From Pedobacter soli (GTDB taxonomy: Bacteria > Bacteroidota > Bacteroidia > Sphingobacteriales > Sphingobacteriaceae), in the NCBI RefSeq assembly GCF_900101435.1, contig NZ_FMZH01000010.1, positions 62,001 to 126,000 on the forward strand: a stretch of 64,000 bases of DNA. Direction: 5' to 3'. Below, in pieces: positions 1-9,260 of this stretch. A program made the position numbers and the translations under genes. The notes below the pieces were generated by a model. It was not told the DNA's origin and searched no databases. It worked only from the letters and a program-made list of their open reading frames with translations. Within the stretch, counting starts at the first letter, position 1. Each line of letters opens with the position of its first letter.

Positions 1-171
1 TGGTTTAATTTATTCTATCAGGCTAACCAGGAAGAGATAAATAAATCTTTCCTGTCTCAAGTAGTTGTCTGTCTTTTTTGTTTCCTAAACCAGCATGTGC
101 ATATATTTGCCTGTGCGGGAATTATTTTGGCATAGTTTTTTAGGCTAAGGTGTAAATGAGCTTAGGCCAAA

Positions 172-390
172 ATGATAAAACAAATGGGGATAATAGGATG
201 TTATAGTGAAACAGAGGGTTTTGGTAAAATTAAAACTGATTTCGGAGAAGAGGTTTTGTTTTACCGCACCGGAATATTAAATGGTGCTGAGTTAAAAACG
301 GGCTTAAATGTGTCTTTCGAGTTGCATCAAACCCTATCAGTGGCCATAAACATACAAGTAATTGATCAGTCCGGTATTACTCAAAAATAG
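172..390 (+). CDS. Divergent cold-shock-domain (OB-fold) small protein
   Basis: A 72-residue protein. Its N-terminal half follows the cold-shock pattern: G-x-I near the start, then EGFGKIKTDFGEEVLFYRTGI (split as EGFGKIKTDFGE and EVLFYRTGI), which resembles the RNP1/RNP2 strands of CspA-type proteins (GFGFI and DVFFH). The later GLNVSFEL matches the usual GQxVxFE strand. Classical RNP residues are only partly kept: Tyr stands where Phe-His is usual. It is therefore a diverged member that may bind RNA or single-stranded DNA. It stands alone upstream of the AraC gene with a separate promoter between them. The fold assignment rests on pattern only. Confidence 0.6.
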   Translation: MIKQMGIIGCYSETEGFGKIKTDFGEEVLFYRTGILNGAELKTGLNVSFELHQTLSVAINIQVIDQSGITQK

Positions 391-414
391 GTATATTGGT
401 TGTTTTTTATAGTA

Positions 415-446
415 TTTGTCATACATGTTGATAAGTTTTATCTTTA
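415..446 (+). promoter_or_regulatory. Bacteroidota-type promoter for the AraC gene
   Basis: TTTG at 415-418, a 20-bp spacer, then TATCTTTA at 439-446. This matches the TTTG / TAnnTTTG consensus at all but the last base and leaves a leader of about 50 nt before the AraC start at 505. Confidence 0.5.
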
Positions 447-504
447 GCCATGTAACCAGATAATATAATGTTAGTCATACTGATGTTTATTCCATTAAGT
501 TTAT

Positions 505-1290
505 ATGATACAGCTGGAGCCCATTAGCGGGATTTTTAAGAGAGAGCGTGCGCTTTTGGCAGCATTTCCGATGCGGATGTTAATTGTTAAAGAGGGTGCA
601 GGGTTTTTATGCATGAATTCTGGCGATTACATGCTTGCAAGCGGGAGGATATTCTTTATTCCGGAAGAAGGTTTGGTTCGGCTGGAAGGCGAAATTAAAT
701 CGGGTTACTGGCTCACTTTCAGTAGCTTGTTGTATGCCGAATTTTTATTGCAACACCTCGATCCAATGGCTAAAAACTTGTTCCTCAACTTATCCTTCAG
801 AGATTTAGCACAACAAGAATCAACCAAGACTTATAGTTTGCTCGATCAGTTGCGCAGGGAAATTAATGCCCGCAACGATTTACCTTTTCTGGCTCAATAT
901 TTATCCTTGTTCTTAGGTTATACTGCAGGTTTAGATGGTTACCTGGCGGCCTTAACCCTCGATGAATTGCAGCAGGTACTTCGTTTCAGGGCCATTTTAG
1001 AACAATATTACAAGCAGGAACGCGCTATTCAGTTTTACGCCGAAGGGATGGGTATGAGTGCAAGTAAATTAAACCGTTTTCTTGATCGTGTTTTAGGGAA
1101 AAGCCTGGCTGCGCTGATTAAAGACCGCATTATGCGCGAAGCAGAGGCATTATTAACCCATAGTGATTACAGCATTGATGAAATAGCTAACCTATTGGGG
1201 TTTGAGCAAACCGCTAATTTTAACAGTAGTTTTAAGCGTTACAAAGGAATATCGGTATTTCAGTTTAGCAAGCAGGCGCTGTTGAATTGA
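505..1290 (+). CDS. AraC family transcriptional regulator
   Basis: A 261-residue protein. The first 130 residues look like a degenerate cupin-type sensing domain (for example SGDYMLASGRIFFIPEEG). The last 100 residues are the AraC double helix-turn-helix: MGMSASKLNRFLDRVLGKSL is the first HTH and YSIDEIANLLGFEQTANFNS the second, followed by the usual F-KRYKGISVFQF tail. It is a DNA-binding activator or repressor of unknown ligand. It lies 560 bp upstream of the SusC-SusD-sulfatase operon on the same strand, so it may regulate that operon, but nothing in the sequence proves it. Confidence 0.85.
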   Translation: MIQLEPISGIFKRERALLAAFPMRMLIVKEGAGFLCMNSGDYMLASGRIFFIPEEGLVRLEGEIKSGYWLTFSSLLYAEFLLQHLDPMAKNLFLNLSFRDLAQQESTKTYSLLDQLRREINARNDLPFLAQYLSLFLGYTAGLDGYLAALTLDELQQVLRFRAILEQYYKQERAIQFYAEGMGMSASKLNRFLDRVLGKSLAALIKDRIMREAEALLTHSDYSIDEIANLLGFEQTANFNSSFKRYKGISVFQFSKQALLN

Positions 1291-1439
1291 AAATTGGTGC
1301 GTCTGGCAAAGAAATGGGCATCTGTTCGATTTCATCTCTTCAAGAAAACAGGTTTTCCCGACCTCACCACATTAATTGCTATGGCGCCTAACGCGTAAGG
1401 CCTTGCTCGCTGCATCTTTAATTCAGTCGCACCAATTTT
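1290..1439. repeat. 150-bp element with imperfect terminal inverted repeats (MITE-like)
   Basis: The 16 bp at 1290-1305 (AAAATTGGTGCGTCTG) match the reverse complement of 1424-1439 at 15 positions, with weaker complementarity continuing inward (AAAGATG/CATCTTT-like). The interior has no plausible gene. The left arm starts in the stop codon of the AraC gene. A small dispersed hairpin element is the simplest reading. Confidence 0.4.
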
Positions 1440-1572
1440 ACAAGGACTAAATTATAAAATCCCGCTTTAAGAAAGAAAACATTTTTTAAACAGATATAGA
1501 ATGAGCTGTTTTATCTATTGTGTTTTTGACAGGCAAGATTCAGGGAAAAACGACTAAAAAAAGTCTAGTAAA

Positions 1573-1603
1573 TTTGTAGTCTATTTGAAAAAAATTATAT
1601 TTG
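1573..1603 (+). promoter_or_regulatory. Promoter of the SusC-SusD-sulfatase operon
   Basis: TTTG at 1573-1576, exactly 19 bp, then a perfect TAnnTTTG (TATATTTG) at 1596-1603. Transcription should start near 1610, only about 10 nt before the poly-cysteine leader frame at 1621. Two direct AGTCTA repeats (1562-1567 and 1578-1583) overlap the -33 region and could be an operator. Confidence 0.7.
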
Positions 1604-1620
1604 CCAAAAATATAATCATT

Positions 1621-1701
1621 ATGAAACAAGAATTTACAGAAACTTTAAGCCTGGCTAAGCGGCTGGTTAAAATTTTAAAAGAGATGGGTTGTTGTTGCTG
1701 A
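1621..1701 (+). CDS. 26-residue leader peptide ending Cys-Cys-Cys
   Basis: ATG at 1621, 26 codons, TGA at 1699-1701. The peptide begins MKQEFTETLSLAKRLVK and ends GCCC-stop, encoded by TGT TGT TGC directly before the stop. It is the first frame after the promoter at 1573-1603. It is separated from the susC-like gene by 150 nt containing two inverted repeats. Terminal cysteine runs are the hallmark of cysteine-responsive leader peptides described upstream of sulfur genes in mycobacteria. Here the operon carries a sulfatase, which fits a sulfur response. Too short for ordinary gene calling; translation is inferred from position and design. Confidence 0.6.
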   Translation: MKQEFTETLSLAKRLVKILKEMGCCC

Positions 1702-1749
1702 TGGTAAAGATTTTTGATTCCAATCCATAAACGGATAGGGCAAAAAAAA

Positions 1750-1772
1750 GGAAAATACAATTTGTATTTTCC
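1750..1772 (+). promoter_or_regulatory. Leader inverted repeat A
   Basis: GGAAAATACAA at 1750-1760 and TTGTATTTTCC at 1762-1772 are perfect complements around one base. On the + strand it is preceded by an A run and not followed by a T run, so it is not a simple terminator in the operon direction. On the minus strand it would look like one. Confidence 0.45.
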
Positions 1773-1787
1773 CCAGGCAAATTAACT

Positions 1788-1820
1788 GAACAGGGATTCA
1801 ATTGGCGTTGCGCCCTGTTC
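1788..1820 (+). promoter_or_regulatory. Leader inverted repeat B
   Basis: GAACAGGG at 1788-1795 pairs with CCCTGTTC at 1813-1820 across a 17-nt loop. It lies 30 nt before the susC-like start and is the most stable-looking stem in the leader. It could be the switch element controlled by ribosome position on the poly-Cys peptide. Confidence 0.45.
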
Positions 1821-1850
1821 TAATTCATTCAAATCACCTATTTCAAAGTT

Positions 1851-4800
1851 ATGCAAAATTTTGAGAAAGTCAATCCCGTTCACCGGGCTTTGGCTTTACC
1901 ATGCCTGTTATCCGGGGTTAAACTGGATATCAAGCAAATGGCGCGTGTTTTAGCACCGCTTTTATGGCTTATTGTACCGCTAGTGGTGCAAGCCCAAAAT
2001 CCTACCGAACCAACTATTAATGCCACCTTAACCGGTACCGTTATCGATTCCAAAACAAAGGAAACCTTAATCGGCGCAACTGTTAAAATACAAGGTACAA
2101 CCAACGGTGCTTCTACCGACCGCGATGGCAAGTTCAGGTTAGTTACAGGACAAAAATACCCCTTTACGTTACTTGTTAATTTTGTTGGCTACAAACAAAG
2201 CGAAATTGTGGTTACCCAGAGCCAGATAACAGTAGCGCTGGTAGAAGACAACAACCCTTTAGATGATGTTGTTGTAGTAGGTTACGGTACCCAAAAAAAG
2301 ATTAATCTTACGGGTTCCCTGGCTATTGTCGATGCCAAAACATTAGCCAACAGGCCTATAACAAATGCAACACAGGCTTTGCAAAATGTACCGGGCGTTT
2401 TTACTAACCAAACTAAGGGCAGGCCAGGGGCTGATGCTGCTACAATCCGCATTCGTGGGGCAGGCACACTGAATAACAACAATCCGCTGGTGCTGGTTGA
2501 TGGTATCGAATATCCTTTGGGCGATGTAAATCCAAATGATATTGAAAGTGTTACTGTTTTAAAAGATGCTGCCTCTGCAGCTATTTATGGTAATCGGGCA
2601 GCCAATGGCGTTATTCTGGTCAAGACAAAAACCGGTAAAAATGGAAAATTTTCTATCGATTACAATTTTTATGCTGGTTCGCAAAAGGCCACCCAGTTTC
2701 CGGATGTGGTAACCAATACGGTTGATTATATGATTGGCAAAAACAGGGCACTGGCCAACGAAGGCAAGCCTGCCGAAAGTAGTGAGGCACTGATTAATGA
2801 ATTCAGGACTGGTACCGATCCGTACATTTACCCCAATACCAACTGGTTTGATATTATGTTCCGCAATGCCGCCATTCAGGAGCATAATCTCCGCATTTCT
2901 GGAGGAACTGAAAAAACTGCTTTTTCGATCTCTTTAGGTTATCTGGATCAGGATGGGATATTAATTGCTTCTTCGGGAAAGCGCTATTCTTTAAACACAA
3001 ACGTCAGTTCAGAAATTACCAAAAGATTAAAAGTTGGCGCAAGCTTAACGGCTAATTTCTGGAATAGTAAAGAAAGCGCTTACAGTGCAGATGATGGAAA
3101 TGGTGAGGGTGGATTGATGGGGCTAACCTATCGCGGCCTGCCTTTTCAAACTGCTTACGCCCAGGATGGAACTTATGCCGATCAATGGATTCGCGTACCC
3201 GGGCACAATTTTTTTAGAAATACTGTTGCGCTGGCGAATGAGGGGTTTAATAAGAACAATCAGTACCGTACGCTGGCCAATGTATTTTTAGAATACCAGC
3301 TACCCTTTAATATCAGGTATAAAACCACTTTGGGGGCAAATCTGCTTTATGGCATCAACAAATATTCTTACCCGGCCATTAATTTAACCAATCCTAAAAC
3401 AGGGGCGATAACACCAATTGGCAATACGCCGGCCAGGGGGGTAAGACAAATTAGCCAGAACAACATCAATATTACCAATTTCCACACTTTAAACTGGGAA
3501 GGAGCTTTAAATCAACATCATTTTGGTGCTCTGGCAGGTTTTAGCCTCGAACGTTTTGATGATGGTAATTTTTCGGCTTATAACGAAGGTTATTTGGGTA
3601 ATGATTTAACCGAACTGAATGCTGGCAGCACTTCGCCACAGGTAACAGGTACAGGCGGAGCTTCCCGCTTACAATCATATTTTGGCCGTTTTAATTACAA
3701 TTACAACGAAAAATACCTTTTCGAGGCTAATTTCAGGTATGATGGCTCATCGCGCTTTGCAAAAGATAAAAGGTGGGGCTTTTTTCCTTCCTTCTCGGCC
3801 GGATGGCGGGCCAGCGAAGAAGATTTTATTAAAGACCTGAATATTTTTAGCAATTTGAAAGTACGTGCTTCATACGGCAAGCTGGGCAACCAGAATGTTT
3901 CGCTGTTTAGTTATGTAGATGCCATAGCCCTGGGCCAGAATTATAATTTTAACGGCACAATTGTAAGTGGGGCAGCCATTACCCAGCTTAGCGATCCAAA
4001 TATTACCTGGGAAACAACCACCATGAGCGATATAGGTTTAGAAGGAAGCCTTTTTAAAGGTAAGTTAACTTTCGAACTGGATTGGTTTGATAAACAGACT
4101 TCGAAAATTTTGCGGCAAATCAGTGTTCCCGGGCAGGTGGGTAATTTGGCCGGGCCGGTAAAAAACATTGGGGCAGTTAACAACAGGGGCTTCGAAGTTA
4201 CGGTAGGTTTTAAAGATGCCGTAAACGACTTCAGGTATAACTTAGATGCCAATCTCACCTATGTTAAAAACAAGGTGACCAATGTAAACGGCCAGAAATA
4301 TTATAGTGGTAACACCATTATTCAGGAAGGTTCTGCTATAGATAGTTTTTACGGATTGCAGGCCGAGGGGATTTTCCAAACGGCAGATGAAGTTAAAGCA
4401 CATGCTTTTCAAAATGCAGGTACTGTTCCGGGCGACCTGAAATATAAAGATGTAGATGGCAATGGTGTAATCGATAACAACGACCGGGTGGTAATTGGCA
4501 ACAGCATTCCAAAATTTGTATACGGTTTTTCTGGTGGTTTTGGCTACCAACGGTGGGATTTTAGCTTCATTTTTCAGGGATTACAGGACGTAGATACTTA
4601 TTTAAGCGGTAATTTGGCCCAACCTTTCAAGAACGGTGCCGGAGTAACCAAAAATTGGCTTAGCGATTCGTGGACACCAACCAATACGGGGGCAAGTTTA
4701 CCACGACTCACTACTTCGAACGGATATCCGCAGAATTTCCAGACTTCGAGTTTTTGGGTACGCGATGCTTCCTATCTGCGACTGAAAAATGTTCAGATAA

Positions 4801-4994
4801 GCTATTCATTCCCCAGTAAATGGCTAAGCAAAGCAGGAATCGATGTGTTAAAGGTTTTTGTAAATGCCCAAAACTACCTCACCTTTTCTAACTTCAAATT
4901 TAGCGACCCTGAACGCAATTTAACACGTGCTGATTTAATTGAGTATCCCAATGCCAAAACAATTAGTGCCGGACTTAATGTATCATTTAAATAA
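1851..4994 (+). CDS. SusC/RagA-family TonB-dependent outer-membrane transporter
   Basis: A 1047-residue protein. ATG at 1851 gives a long N-terminal extension. An internal ATG at 1938 (residue 30, MARVLAPLLWLIVPLVVQAQ) would give a compact signal peptide and is a plausible true start. A carboxypeptidase-regulatory-like domain follows (TGTVIDSKTKETLIGATVKI), then the TonB-box region DDVVVVGYGTQKK, the plug with LKDAASAAIYGNRAANGVI, and a C-terminal beta-barrel. It pairs with the SusD gene that starts 7 nt after its stop, and a sulfatase follows. The likely cargo is a sulfated organic compound. Family assignment is secure; cargo is inferred. Confidence 0.93.
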   Translation: MQNFEKVNPVHRALALPCLLSGVKLDIKQMARVLAPLLWLIVPLVVQAQNPTEPTINATLTGTVIDSKTKETLIGATVKIQGTTNGASTDRDGKFRLVTGQKYPFTLLVNFVGYKQSEIVVTQSQITVALVEDNNPLDDVVVVGYGTQKKINLTGSLAIVDAKTLANRPITNATQALQNVPGVFTNQTKGRPGADAATIRIRGAGTLNNNNPLVLVDGIEYPLGDVNPNDIESVTVLKDAASAAIYGNRAANGVILVKTKTGKNGKFSIDYNFYAGSQKATQFPDVVTNTVDYMIGKNRALANEGKPAESSEALINEFRTGTDPYIYPNTNWFDIMFRNAAIQEHNLRISGGTEKTAFSISLGYLDQDGILIASSGKRYSLNTNVSSEITKRLKVGASLTANFWNSKESAYSADDGNGEGGLMGLTYRGLPFQTAYAQDGTYADQWIRVPGHNFFRNTVALANEGFNKNNQYRTLANVFLEYQLPFNIRYKTTLGANLLYGINKYSYPAINLTNPKTGAITPIGNTPARGVRQISQNNINITNFHTLNWEGALNQHHFGALAGFSLERFDDGNFSAYNEGYLGNDLTELNAGSTSPQVTGTGGASRLQSYFGRFNYNYNEKYLFEANFRYDGSSRFAKDKRWGFFPSFSAGWRASEEDFIKDLNIFSNLKVRASYGKLGNQNVSLFSYVDAIALGQNYNFNGTIVSGAAITQLSDPNITWETTTMSDIGLEGSLFKGKLTFELDWFDKQTSKILRQISVPGQVGNLAGPVKNIGAVNNRGFEVTVGFKDAVNDFRYNLDANLTYVKNKVTNVNGQKYYSGNTIIQEGSAIDSFYGLQAEGIFQTADEVKAHAFQNAGTVPGDLKYKDVDGNGVIDNNDRVVIGNSIPKFVYGFSGGFGYQRWDFSFIFQGLQDVDTYLSGNLAQPFKNGAGVTKNWLSDSWTPTNTGASLPRLTTSNGYPQNFQTSSFWVRDASYLRLKNVQISYSFPSKWLSKAGIDVLKVFVNAQNYLTFSNFKFSDPERNLTRADLIEYPNAKTISAGLNVSFK

Positions 4995-5001
4995 AAAGGA
5001 A

Positions 5002-6504
5002 ATGAAAAAATATTTGCTGCTGTTAACGGTTTCGTTGCTCTTTTTCGGTTGTAAAGATTACCTTGATGTAACGCCAACTGATCGTTTTACACAAGACACC
5101 TATTGGAATACCAAAATACAGGCCGAAGCTGCTTTAAACGGAACCTATGCCGCTCTTTACTATAATGTATATGCTGCAAATTCAATTTATCTGGATGCGC
5201 TGACGCCAAATACTTACCAATACAATAACGATTACAATATCATTTCGCGGGGTTTGCACAATGCAGCTACCGGTTACTTTAACGAAACCTGGAACGGCAG
5301 CTACAAAGGAATTGGGCGTGCCAACAATGTGCTGGCCAATATCGACAAAGTAAATATGGATGCTACGCTGAAAGAAAGATATAAAGCAGAAGCAAAATAT
5401 CTGCGCGCTTTGTATTATATACCATTGTGGAATCTGTTTGGTGGTGCGCCATTAATTACCGAAGCCACCAATTACGAAACCCAGGCTACTTTGCCAAGAA
5501 ATACAGCAGATGAACTGTTGGCACAGATTTTAAAAGATCTTAACGAGGCCTCATCTGGCACGGTGCTTCCGTTGAGCTATTCGGGAGCAGACAAGGGGCG
5601 GGCTACTCGGGGTGCAGCTCTGGCTTTAAAAGCGAGGGTGTTGCTGTATGCCAAACGCTGGAAAGAAGCCGCTGAAGCGGCCAAAGCGGTTATCGATTTA
5701 AAAAACTATAGCCTCTTTCCCGATTATCGCGGTTTGTTTTACCTTGAAAATGAAGGCAATGCCGAAGTGATTTTCGATGTACAGTATAAATATCCTGAGT
5801 TTACGCACTCGCTCGATATCAGCCTGGATCAGCAATTGGGCTCGGCTCCATTACCCGATCTGGTAAATGCCTATTATGCTACAGATGGCAAGCCAATCTC
5901 CGGATCGGCTGTTTACAATGCTGCAAAACCATTCGAAAACCGCGACAGTCGCCTGCAGGCAACTGTAATTTTACCCGGCACCCAATTTAAAGGTGCTGTA
6001 GTAACCGCCATTCAGTATCCAAGTACAGGTTATGGTTTAAAAAAATACACCATTTTTAAAGATAACGAAAAACCAGTTTCGGCCCCAACCAGCGGCACTT
6101 CTGAGCTGAATCTTATTTTGTTGCGTTATGCCGATGTGCTTTTAATGTATGCAGAGGCTAAAAACGAAGATACGGGGCCCGATCAATCGGTATTTGATGC
6201 CTTAAATCTGATCCGTGCGCGGGCGAAAATGCCTAATGTTACAACTGGCTTGAACCAGGAAGATCTTCGGGCAGAGATCAGGCACGAACGGAGGATAGAA
6301 CTGGCCGGAGAGGGTTTGTATTATTACGATATACGCCGGTGGAGAATTGCAGACCAGGTGTTGAATGGAAATATAACCAATAGTGCAGGTGCGAGGATTG
6401 ATAGCCGCCTTTTTGATGCCAATAAAGATTACCTCTGGCCGGTACCTTCTATAGCTATCCAAAATAACCCCGCCCTGAAACAGAACCCTAACTACAATAA
6501 ATAA
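5002..6504 (+). CDS. SusD/RagB-family surface nutrient-binding lipoprotein
   Basis: The start at 5002 is chosen because MKKYLLLLTVSLLFFGC is a clean lipoprotein signal with its lipobox Cys. The upstream in-frame start at 4939 lies inside the SusC gene and would bury this signal. SusD hallmarks: AEAKYLRALYYIPLWNLFGG in the N-terminal TPR part, and near the C-terminus IRHERRIELAGEGLYYYDIRRW followed by YLWPVPSIAIQNNPALKQNP (each a typical SusD block). It caps the SusC-like barrel encoded immediately upstream and captures the substrate. The ligand cannot be read from sequence. Confidence 0.93.
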   Translation: MKKYLLLLTVSLLFFGCKDYLDVTPTDRFTQDTYWNTKIQAEAALNGTYAALYYNVYAANSIYLDALTPNTYQYNNDYNIISRGLHNAATGYFNETWNGSYKGIGRANNVLANIDKVNMDATLKERYKAEAKYLRALYYIPLWNLFGGAPLITEATNYETQATLPRNTADELLAQILKDLNEASSGTVLPLSYSGADKGRATRGAALALKARVLLYAKRWKEAAEAAKAVIDLKNYSLFPDYRGLFYLENEGNAEVIFDVQYKYPEFTHSLDISLDQQLGSAPLPDLVNAYYATDGKPISGSAVYNAAKPFENRDSRLQATVILPGTQFKGAVVTAIQYPSTGYGLKKYTIFKDNEKPVSAPTSGTSELNLILLRYADVLLMYAEAKNEDTGPDQSVFDALNLIRARAKMPNVTTGLNQEDLRAEIRHERRIELAGEGLYYYDIRRWRIADQVLNGNITNSAGARIDSRLFDANKDYLWPVPSIAIQNNPALKQNPNYNK

Positions 6505-6507
6505 AAT

Positions 6508-7926
6508 ATGAGACACACTTTAAAATATATGGCTTTAGCCTTACTGTTAGGCAGTGGCTACGGGGTGCAGGCGCAAAGCAAACGGAAACCCAATATTATT
6601 TTTATCCTGGCCGATGATTTAGGTTATGGCAACGTGAAAAGTTTTAATCCAAACAGCAAAATACCAACCCCAAACTTAGATCGGCTGGCAGGAGAGGGCA
6701 TTAAATTTACCCGTTTCTACTCAGGCAATACGGTTTGTGCACCTTCACGCTGCGCTTTAATGACGGGGTTTAACATGGGCCACGCCTGGGTACGCGGAAA
6801 TGCTAAAGCGAAAGATGGGCTGGCTGCTTTACGTGCACAGGATACCACTTTGGCCCAGCGTTTAAAAGGCAATGGCTATAGAACTGGTATGTTTGGAAAA
6901 TGGGGGTTAGGAGATGATGACAGTCAGGGGGCACCACATTTAAAAGGCTTTGATGCTTTTTATGGCTACCTGGATCAATCGCACGCCCATGATTATTATA
7001 CCAATCATTTATACGAAATAATTGGTGGTAAAACCGTAGAAGTACCGGTTGATACAACGCAATACACCGAAGATCTGATTGTAAATAAAGCTGTTGATTT
7101 TATTAACGCCAATAAAGACCAACCTTTCTTTCTGTATTTGCCTTTAACGGTGCCACATGCCGAATTGAAAGTGCCGGCAGCGTTGCTCAAGAAATTTCAG
7201 CATGCCGATGGCTCGAGTAAATTCCCACCCGAAACACCCTTCGAGAAAAAAGGGAATTACGATAGTCAGGCGCAGCCGCATGCAACATTTGCAGCAATGG
7301 TAAATAAGCTGGATACGGATGTAGGTACGATTGTAGCCCTTATTAAAAAACTTGGACTGGATAACGATACCTATATTTTCTTTACCAGCGATAATGGCCC
7401 GCATAAAGAAGGTGGGGCAGATCCGGTTTATTTTAACAGCGGTGGTGCATTCAGGGGGGTAAAAAGAGACTTGTACGAAGGGGGTATCCGTGTTCCGCTT
7501 ATTGTAAGGGCGCCAGGTAAAATAGCCGCAGCACAGGTAAATCCTTCTCCCTGGGCTTTTTGGGATATCTTGCCAACTTTAGGCGAGCTTACGGGCACCG
7601 CTACACCAAAAAATATCGATGGTCTTTCTTTTTCACCACTACTAAACGGTAAAAAAGCAGTAAAAGAGCACGACTATTTTTACTGGCAGTTTAATGAAAA
7701 TGGTTTAAAGGAAGCTTTAACCAAAGGAGATTGGAAACTGATTCGTTTTAAAGATAAGGGAACCGCTGAAAAGCTGGAACTGTATAACTTAAAAAGTGAT
7801 ATTAGTGAAAAACATGATATCGCTGCTAAAAATCCCGATACAGTGAAGGCTTTGTACGCATTAATGAAAAAGGCCAAAACTCCTGCCGAAAACCCAAGAT
7901 TTGATTGGTCGGAAATTGAACAATAA
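6508..7926 (+). CDS. Periplasmic arylsulfatase-family hydrolase (formylglycine type)
   Basis: A 472-residue protein with a signal peptide ending near VQAQ (residue 23). Metal-binding DD at 36-37 lies in NIIFILADDLGYG. The signature is C77-A-P-S-R81, where Cys77 is the residue converted to formylglycine, followed by ALMTG. A later FTSDNGPHKEGG supplies further metal ligands. It releases sulfate from an organic ester. The start is 3 nt after the SusD stop, so it is the third gene of one operon led by the poly-Cys leader. No sulfatase-maturating enzyme is in the window. The substrate is unknown; the architecture suits sulfate scavenging as well as glycan desulfation. Confidence 0.92.
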   Translation: MRHTLKYMALALLLGSGYGVQAQSKRKPNIIFILADDLGYGNVKSFNPNSKIPTPNLDRLAGEGIKFTRFYSGNTVCAPSRCALMTGFNMGHAWVRGNAKAKDGLAALRAQDTTLAQRLKGNGYRTGMFGKWGLGDDDSQGAPHLKGFDAFYGYLDQSHAHDYYTNHLYEIIGGKTVEVPVDTTQYTEDLIVNKAVDFINANKDQPFFLYLPLTVPHAELKVPAALLKKFQHADGSSKFPPETPFEKKGNYDSQAQPHATFAAMVNKLDTDVGTIVALIKKLGLDNDTYIFFTSDNGPHKEGGADPVYFNSGGAFRGVKRDLYEGGIRVPLIVRAPGKIAAAQVNPSPWAFWDILPTLGELTGTATPKNIDGLSFSPLLNGKKAVKEHDYFYWQFNENGLKEALTKGDWKLIRFKDKGTAEKLELYNLKSDISEKHDIAAKNPDTVKALYALMKKAKTPAENPRFDWSEIEQ

Positions 7927-7945
7927 TCCTTAAAAAAAAAAGTTT

Positions 7946-7985
7946 CACACCGCCTCATGAACTGAAATTAGTGTGAGGTGGTGTG
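7946..7985. terminator. Bidirectional terminator between convergent genes
   Basis: CACACCGCCTCA at 7946-7957 pairs with TGAGGTGGTGTG at 7974-7985 (11 of 12). An A run precedes it, serving as the U tract for the minus-strand gene. It separates the sulfatase from the convergent Hsp70-like gene. Confidence 0.7.
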
Positions 7986-7991
7986 AATTAC

Positions 7992-9260
7992 TTAATCTTC
8001 AAATAAATAACCGCTGTAGGCCAATCCTTTGGCTACACTTTTAAAGTTATCGCCCGAGTTTAGTGGAATATGCGGGAATTTATTTTTGAAAAGCTGTTGT
8101 ACAGCCGCCACCATCGATGTTCCACCGGTTAAAAACAAGCAGTCTATATCCTGAGGTGCCACTTTGTAAGTTTCCATAAACTGATCGAGGTATTTTTCAA
8201 TTTTTTGGATATCTCTTTCGATAATGTTGTTGTATTGCGCTATTGAAATATCTTCATCAATTTCGATTTCCATATTGGAATAGGCGAAGTTGGATAAAGG
8301 CTGATCTGAAAGCTCGATTTTTGTTTTTTCGATTGATCTGAACAACGAATAACCCAGGTTATTTTCGATCAGGGTAATCAGGTTTTTAAATTTAGGATCG
8401 TTGCCCGAATAGTAGTAATATTCTTCAATCTCCTTCTGGATTTTTAAACCATTAAAGAAGTTCATCTTATCCCAGGTACAAATATTAGCAAAAAGCGATT
8501 TGGGTACATTAAGCACTTTGCCAGGTGTGGCTTCGTACATGGTGTTTTTACCAAAGTAAGGCGTTCCCTTTTCCCACATAAAAGCCGAGTCGAGGCTATC
8601 GCCACCAATATAAATACCACCTGAGGCAATCATGTCGTTTTTGCGGTCTTTGCTGCCTACCTTGTCAGGATCAAGTACCAGATAAGTAAAATCGGTTGTT
8701 CCACCACCTAAATCGGCTACCAATACACGTTCCTTTTTAGTGATGGTTTTTTCGTAGGCAAAGGCCGCGCCTATGGGCTCGAACTGAAAACGTACATGGG
8801 TAAAACCTGCATTTTCGGCCGCTTTTTTTAAACGGGTTTGCGCAAGGGTATCTTTCATGGCGCTGTCATCGTCAAAGAAAACCGGACGACCAATAATGGC
8901 CCTGTGGCAATCTTCGCCAATAATTTGATCAGCTTTATCTTTTAAGTCTTTAAGAATTAAAGTAACCAGATCTGATGCTGTGTACCGTTTATTGTGGATG
9001 CGTGTTTCGGTAAAGGTTGTACGCGAAAGGATTTGTTTAATCGATTTGATAAACCTTCCTTTCATGCCATCGTTCAGGTAAGCTTCAATAGCCTTTTCGC
9101 CCACAATGTGGCTTTCGCCATCTACCATGCTTTTGGTTTCTGTAAAATAAATGAGCGAAGGAATGGAAATGGTTTCTACAATTTCTCTTTTTTCTTCATC
9201 GTAAATGGAAAGGGCCGAATTGGTTGTTCCAAAATCTATTCCGTACAAAAACTTACTCAT
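7992..9260 (-). CDS. Hsp70/DnaK-like ATPase without substrate-binding domain (YegD-like)
   Basis: A 422-residue protein. It opens with LYGIDFGTTNSALSIYD, the Hsp70/actin phosphate-1 loop. VLVADLGGGTTDFTYLVLD is the phosphate-2 motif, and DCLFLTGGTSMVAAVQQLF is the adenosine motif near residue 385. At 422 residues it ends after the nucleotide-binding domain, so the peptide-binding and lid domains of DnaK (about 640 residues) are absent, as in YegD-type proteins. It is probably an ATPase or regulatory chaperone; the client is unknown. It reads toward the sulfatase and ends at the shared terminator. The Pif1-like gene lies 75 bp upstream on the same strand. Confidence 0.85.
   Translation of the reverse strand: MSKFLYGIDFGTTNSALSIYDEEKREIVETISIPSLIYFTETKSMVDGESHIVGEKAIEAYLNDGMKGRFIKSIKQILSRTTFTETRIHNKRYTASDLVTLILKDLKDKADQIIGEDCHRAIIGRPVFFDDDSAMKDTLAQTRLKKAAENAGFTHVRFQFEPIGAAFAYEKTITKKERVLVADLGGGTTDFTYLVLDPDKVGSKDRKNDMIASGGIYIGGDSLDSAFMWEKGTPYFGKNTMYEATPGKVLNVPKSLFANICTWDKMNFFNGLKIQKEIEEYYYYSGNDPKFKNLITLIENNLGYSLFRSIEKTKIELSDQPLSNFAYSNMEIEIDEDISIAQYNNIIERDIQKIEKYLDQFMETYKVAPQDIDCLFLTGGTSMVAAVQQLFKNKFPHIPLNSGDNFKSVAKGLAYSGYLFED

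Follow-up and report, generated by a model that had tools for sequence, protein, structure and literature searches.

A leader ORF ending in cysteine codons and a conserved hairpin precede mostly sulfur-linked SusCD operons in Pedobacter and related Sphingobacteriaceae

Does a short reading frame that ends in three cysteine codons, located ahead of a SusC-SusD-sulfatase operon of Pedobacter soli, encode a leader peptide through which the operon reads the cysteine supply? The window analysed here comprises 64,000 nucleotides of a genome of ~6.0 Mb in 30 contigs. The leader ORF is found at 1621–1701 of the forward strand (coding part 1621–1698, stop 1699–1701) and encodes the 26 residues MKQEFTETLSLAKRLVKILKEMGCCC. 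Its terminal codons TGT TGT TGC (1690–1698) directly precede TGA, exactly as the sequence-only reading had described. On the same strand, a promoter of the form TTTG-N19-TATATTTG occupies 1573–1603 (TTTG at 1573–1576, a gap of 19 nt, TATATTTG at 1596–1603). The promoter consensus of Bacteroidota is TTTG/TANNTTTG. Judged by the position of these boxes, transcription would start ~11 nt 5' of the leader ATG, which agrees with the earlier placement of a promoter shortly before this codon. Shine-Dalgarno sites are little used in Bacteroidota.

The leader lies downstream of a gene for an AraC-type regulator (505–1290, forward strand, Pfam HTH_18). The three genes that follow it, also on the forward strand, were confirmed by Pfam in the functions originally given to them. 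They encode a SusC/RagA TonB-dependent transporter (1851–4994; Plug and TonB_dep_Rec_b-barrel, TIGR04056), a SusD lipoprotein (5002–6504; SusD_RagB on 4999–6504) and a sulfatase (6508–7926; Sulfatase, 4.4e-56) with a C-x-P-S-R motif read from the sequence. The SusD ORF as listed begins at TTG 4939 and an ATG is present at 5002. The distance from the end of the leader ORF to the start of SusC is 149 nt.

Among the 56 SusC genes of the genome, this one alone is preceded, in the 500 nt upstream, by a uORF that starts with ATG and has Cys-Cys at its end. There are two looser cases, one ending 563 nt upstream and the other starting with GTG and ending in CCKN. The genome contains 67 occurrences of the pattern TGYTGYTGYTRA, compared to 17 of the reversed pattern, and none of the 30 sites fetched from these 67 (the window's own site excluded) showed an intergenic ATG-started ORF.

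The search for SusC orthologs covered 145 genomes of the genus and 399 of the family. Pedobacter kyungheensis has a SusC with 99% identity to that of the window. Seven distinct leaders were obtained at orthologs of at least 87% identity (window, P. kyungheensis, P. frigidisoli, P. panaciterrae and three other genomes of the genus) and all of them carry a uORF of 25–26 codons at the same place. Directly before the stop, these uORFs end in ..KEMGCCC (two leaders), ..RSCYCCS, ..NRRCCC, ..NRMYCCW, ..NRMYCCC and ..NRRYCCS. The only residues invariant in all seven are M1, T6, C24 and C25, and the middles have diverged. Conservation of the Cys codons and the stop among Pedobacter leaders, which the sequence-only reading had put forward as a check, is thus seen in close orthologs as a Cys-Cys pair with a nearby stop in 7/7. 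At 79% SusC identity (L113), Cys-Cys is located at codons 23–24 and followed by five more codons. L114 (76%), L096 (75%, with an identical leader in L135), L136 (70%) and L138 and L139 (both ~62%) have no Cys run, and the uORF of L137 (63%) ends in ..FCLCYRMRMS. The hairpin described below is kept in L113, L114 and L096. It is also present in L124 and L125, which have no Cys uORF 3' of the promoter. As Cys is kept in close orthologs and conservation fades further away, the Cys codons appear to be under selection with turnover of the peptide around them. By these sequence comparisons, the leader ORF is not a product of chance.

A peptide-pattern search over one genome per GTDB species yielded 15 loci. 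In a peptide search of 201 genomes, only the window scored well; there were four other weak matches, three of them with an internal stop. This poor yield results from the unconserved middle of the leader peptide, and the view that the peptide itself is conserved for its function was therefore rejected.

An alignment of ten leaders contains two hairpins between uORF and SusC, the second with a nearly invariant loop. Hairpin 2 spans 1788–1820, with the loop core CAATTGGCGTTG at 1799–1810. The hairpin is covarying and its loop reads CAAT-TGGC-GTTG. A 15-nt form of it has an exact match before other genes in genus g15, where SusC follows a gene for a MetQ-type lipoprotein in one case (L146, uORF end ..NTCRCW) and a sulfatase is present in the other (L147, uORF MTRACVPTCGMRINHY). 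A 28-nt covariance model of hairpin 2, named R1 (window match 1790–1818), has matches in 175 of the 399 family genomes and in 12 of 25 genera (E 0.02 or better), with a single match in this genome. In a sample of the phylum it matched 6/395 at 0.001. Two of these six are family members and four look like chance (two inside long ORFs, one without a neighbouring long ORF and one without the core by pattern). L229, L230 and L261 from the family sample look like chance, too.

Pairing was evaluated on 84 R1 matches (59 distinct). In this alignment, which is fitted to the model and thereby favours pairing, and which includes the chance rows L137:3171, L229 and L230, pairing holds in 95.7% of the pair cells. 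Each of the five outer pairs has changed on both sides, and double-change cells number 50, compared to 9.2 in shuffles; in slid versions, pairing does not exceed 48%. In 52 of the 62 non-redundant leaders measured, the core and the first long ORF are 44–54 nt apart, with the core upstream. No Rfam 15 covariance match was found in the leader (window 1–8000, with three chance matches elsewhere), and the only one in 16 related loci is a tRNA in L263. The loop as a motif spread over the genome was rejected (22 matches with up to two mismatches, 26 for the control). No consensus pairing of the Cys codons with the later leader or a downstream stem was found.

Further folds were observed in these regions. 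Three of 67 leaders (L202, L210 and L239) carry a second copy of CAATTGGCGTTG at the inferred 5' end of the transcript, before the uORF. A consensus fold of eight Pedobacter leaders places the SusC start codon in a hairpin loop (~1838–1872 of the window). By eye, an inverted repeat is visible ~20–45 nt inside several SusC genes of the hairpin group.

Leaders from other genera were taken from 60 fetched hairpin loci and the 30 best loci of the family-wide R1 search. The usable loci number 86 (six added by hand), corresponding to 67 non-redundant leaders, and represent best-scoring loci spread by hand and not a random sample. The combination of a Cys-rich uORF with a sulfur-scavenging SusCD operon, noted earlier for the single locus, extends to other genera, in which different uORFs recur. 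Before the stop they end in ..KKQYCCCC, ..AGYCCCC, MRMANMCCC, ..CCMCCCC, ..MSYCCCY, ..RMCVSCCC, ..CCRCWCCCRM, ..PGCCC, ..SLCCC or ..NSCCCRD. Those of genus g16 have ~32 codons and end in RMRMC plus one residue, some with Arg replacing Cys. At least three Cys among the last six residues are found in 17 of the 67 leaders (mean 0.17 and maximum 2 in 300 dinucleotide shuffles), at least two in 24 (mean 2.7, s.d. 1.7, maximum 9) and at least one in 49 (29.5, maximum 42). The shuffles are conservative, because one filter used on the real leaders is absent from them. The corresponding numbers for the 55 other SusC genes of the genome, which served as control, are 0, 2 and 21.

The reading frame of the Cys codons is likewise preserved. 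In 17 of the 18 runs with at least three TGY codons, an ATG uORF is in the frame that translates them as Cys (3 and 2 for the other frames). The stop comes 0–5 codons after the run, and the runs contain both TGT (54) and TGC (19). The distance from uORF to gene varies widely between species. In 42 leaders, the 300 nt upstream contain no end of an ORF that has the same orientation and 100 codons or more; a uORF rich in Cys or Cys/Met is missing from 15 of these. Cys-containing ORFs of the MKTTEDSGMEHLGFRCV... class were rejected as leader peptides, as they are the C-terminus of the upstream gene in 7/8 loci. In the eighth (L223, counted in the tally for at least one Cys and absent from those for at least two) the upstream frame is interrupted. 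The upstream gene of this class is an FGE-sulfatase gene by Pfam in the two that were scanned. Taken together, these comparisons indicate that the uORF with its terminal Cys codons is under selection, that the frame matters and that the leaders belong to mostly sulfur-linked SusCD operons of Sphingobacteriaceae.

The sulfur link was assessed on the 60 fetched loci, 57 of which show the hairpin core by pattern. A SusC-sized ORF (at least 800 residues) starts within 260 nt downstream in 48 of these 57. Within the fetched stretch, a sulfatase follows on the same strand in 26 of the 48 SusC loci and none is present in the other 22. The scan of 90 operon genes, out of 122 listed, identified 36 sulfatases, 8 thioredoxins, 6 rhodaneses and 3 proteins of the YeiH type. 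Eight loci are located directly behind a sulfatase-activating (FGE) gene, one of which is interrupted. Fifteen distinct proteins of sulfatase-less operons were scanned singly; the matches were a thioredoxin-like protein, an amidohydrolase and an S51 peptidase, and the other 12 had no match in the libraries scanned. The link of the hairpin-led operons to sulfur scavenging is thus strong without being universal.

Several neighbouring arrangements were noted. In L178 (G073:C12), a hairpin-led SusCD operon is flanked by a gene for a MetQ/NlpA-type lipoprotein and by genes of the cytochrome c and sulfite-oxidase types, the latter being a molybdopterin enzyme. The neighbours of MetQ look like MetN and MetI by eye. 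L263 has a tRNA-Cys (GCA) gene inside the leader (8660–8731, minus strand of the locus and sense to the operon), between a uORF ending in CCC and the conserved hairpin. No other leader of the 90 loci scanned, some of which represent the same site, contains a tRNA; a tRNA-Leu of L229 is far from the hairpin. In the P. soli genome itself (L294:12083–14033, G000:C7), near-matches to the palindrome described below and a TATATTTG box are located upstream of a tRNA-Cys gene, after which come a hairpin resembling a terminator (by eye) and the gene of a 550-residue sulfatase. At L294:5100–5263, a palindrome TCTATAGATTTAGTAGT and a short ORF with the end ..MRMCCCCA precede the gene of a PhyH-family dioxygenase; this is possibly a second Cys leader of the genome, without the hairpin.

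Two further elements, a likely antisense RNA and a palindrome, were, like the conserved hairpin, not part of the sequence-only reading. On the reverse strand, an intrinsic terminator is located at 1742–1774 (stem 1748–1774 by scan, with the T tract read as A8 at 1742–1749); on the forward strand the same stretch appears as an A tract and hairpin 1. Antisense-strand terminators are present in 43 of the 67 leaders and sense terminators in eight, with 0.65 expected from 20 mononucleotide shuffles. The scan found none on the antisense strand in the other 24. In each leader with an antisense terminator, the first such T tract begins 42–55 nt ahead of the hairpin core. Among the 55 control SusC genes of the genome, nine have antisense and three have sense terminators. 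A weak candidate for the -7 box of an antisense promoter, TAACTTTG, is found at 1844–1851 of the reverse strand; near the SusC start, the best antisense box does not score clearly higher than in control SusC genes. The fixed distance of the terminators points to an antisense RNA of ~100 nt resembling DonS, which is predicted and likely acts on the leader. DonS RNAs of Bacteroides are a family of 78–128-nt antisense RNAs divergent to susC homologs (PMC7366714). In the present loci, an antisense terminator is located ~100 nt from the SusC start. In contrast, the RNA proposed here is predicted from sequence and is associated with sulfur operons, a loop near-invariant across genera and a Cys-coding uORF. 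In its available passages, the DonS paper also mentions that long 5' UTRs in B. thetaiotaomicron hold short ORFs reminiscent of leader peptides, and does not name cysteine (PMC7366714).

An operator-like palindrome, TCTA-N9-TAGT, is present at 1564–1580 and overlaps the -33 box. CTA-N9-TAG occurs in 41 of the 67 non-redundant leaders, compared to 2, 3, 6 and 2 for spacers of 7, 8, 10 and 11. In 20 of the 30 leaders with a TANNTTTG box within 60 nt downstream, this box follows CTA by 31–35 nt, which indicates that the palindrome covers the -33 region. Probably, a regulator of this repressor-like box also acts on the leader. A genome-wide regulon was rejected: with up to two mismatches, the 17-nt form occurs 45 times per strand and the reversed pattern 55 times, which is no enrichment, and the numbers for the 19-nt and 23-nt forms are 5 (control 14) and 1 (control 1). 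The neighbours of single palindromes are leads only. One of them, L295:2066–2399 in the same genome, combines a palindrome ACTACTAAATCTATAGA and a TATATTTG box with a small ORF and a tRNA-Met ~260 nt on, and may be chance.

We consider it quite probable that the ORF is a true leader peptide, whose job would be to be translated and whose Cys run would sense supply in an operon for the import and desulfation of a sulfate ester. Cysteine-responsive control is the likeliest reading and is a prediction. When cysteine is short, ribosomes would slow or stop at the Cys codons. This would alter the folding of the leader or the access of the antisense RNA and switch SusC on; with plentiful cysteine the leader would be shut. 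The uORF would read charged Cys-tRNA, and ends such as RMRMC in g16 suggest that Met may be read, too. The attenuation of sulfate scavenging by cysteine, as originally proposed, is supported by the conserved Cys codons and the sulfur-linked operons, but a classical attenuator is not what the locus resembles. The recurrent terminator is antisense, and 149 nt to SusC is too far for simple translational coupling. No intrinsic terminator was found on the sense strand in 1400–2000, nor any conserved alternative pairing, so control would rather proceed via mRNA folding, Rho-dependent termination or antisense pairing.

Other readings of the leader share parts of this evidence. That the uORF is untranslated, TGTTGTTG being kept as a motif of the DNA or the RNA and its frame arising as a by-product, is very improbable: nucleotides around the promoter, the ATG and the hairpins are indeed conserved among close relatives as well, but the frame test (17/18), the use of both Cys codons and the different peptides per genus argue against it. 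An end of Arg, Met or Tyr followed by Cys-Cys might also arrest the nascent chain in the exit tunnel, with a thiol, a metal or a redox change as the signal and not a lack of charged Cys-tRNA. Arg or Met often precedes Cys (NRRYCCS, NRMYCCC, RMRMC, FRC) and the g16 leaders L241 and L270 keep RMR or RMRM without Cys. However, the residues before Cys vary (KEMGCCC, KKQYCCCC, LSLCCC, SYCCCY), the common factor being the number of Cys codons, and arrest peptides usually keep a longer motif. Arrest is thus considered unlikely. Similarly doubtful is a uORF that serves only to load ribosomes, or as the target of an antisense block of translation as in plasmid replication control, with the Cys codons setting the speed. 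The UUGGCG loop fits the YUNR kissing-loop rule and is presumably the hexamer of the IncI/IncFII plasmid antisense RNAs, which are likewise assumed to work with a leader ORF. Against this stand the hexamer itself, which was not found printed in the literature among the matches listed, and the region near SusC, where reading the window by eye gave no CGCCAA pseudoknot partner.

The hairpin, too, has an alternative reading. It may work within the sense mRNA, where a protein or a trans-acting RNA would bind it, and no antisense RNA would then exist; we regard this as possible, though not the better account. The loop is conserved far beyond what a pair acting purely in cis would require, the second loop copy of three leaders lies at the transcript 5' end, and the antisense side offers an unconvincing promoter and, in 24/67 leaders, no terminator by scan. 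On the other hand, 43 antisense terminators at one fixed position, compared to eight on the sense strand, are hard to explain otherwise. With the antisense RNA retained, three controls would be stacked: the repressor-like palindrome at -33, the uORF and the DonS-like RNA, which would start near the SusC start, end ~40 nt after the uORF and pair with the mRNA via the invariant UUGGCG loop. The complete scheme is put forward tentatively. It describes a three-layer sulfur switch of repressor box, Cys (or Cys/Met) leader peptide and cis-antisense RNA with a plasmid-like loop, in which stalled ribosomes would decide on the antisense shut-off of SusC. It would have arisen independently of the mycobacterial and plasmid systems, and one lineage would have taken a tRNA-Cys gene into the leader.

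Leader-peptide attenuators for amino acids also include those of trp and his. Polycysteine uORFs of mycobacteria were reportedly described by Canestrari et al. in 2020. Mycobacterial Cys uORFs are short ORFs at the transcript start before cysteine genes, according to the available part of one report (PMC13236596). As far as that part goes, they share with the present leaders a Cys run in a short ORF at the start of the transcript. They differ in phylum, and the leader of P. soli is probably not strictly leaderless (~11 nt, from the promoter position), is separated from the first gene by 149 nt, precedes genes for outer-membrane import and a sulfatase, and is accompanied by a hairpin and a likely antisense RNA. 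Amino-acid attenuators such as ilvB1 resemble it in the codons for the end product within a short leader ORF (PMC13236596, in the part available). Here, a short ORF near the transcript start has clustered Cys codons, and the genes downstream would supply the element, with a sulfatase both at this locus and in 26/48 related operons. In contrast to those attenuators, no sense terminator/antiterminator pair was found in the window. The leader peptides tap and repY with the antisense RNAs of IncFII/IncI plasmids, which we take to be alike in leader ORF and UUGGCG-type loop, differ from this chromosomal nutrient operon with its Cys codons, and there is no evidence of homology. Among the matches listed, judged by titles and abstract openings, no Bacteroidota case of SusCD control by a Cys leader was found. 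Cys-coding leader ORFs as such are already known from mycobacteria.

SusCD systems are usually read as carbon foragers that are switched on by glycans. The design of hairpin plus Cys uORF is found repeatedly ahead of sulfur-scavenging operons across the family, and this recurrence is the reason for proposing cysteine reading: the leader probably lets the bacteria read the cysteine supply while the mRNA is being made. If this is true, a large set of SusCD-sulfatase operons would be governed by the supply of sulfur amino acids via a leader peptide. The arrangement would also supply a signature by which transporters that scavenge sulfur can be recognised in sequence, and a model for asking how, in Bacteroidota, the stalling of a ribosome might act on the expression of a gene further downstream.
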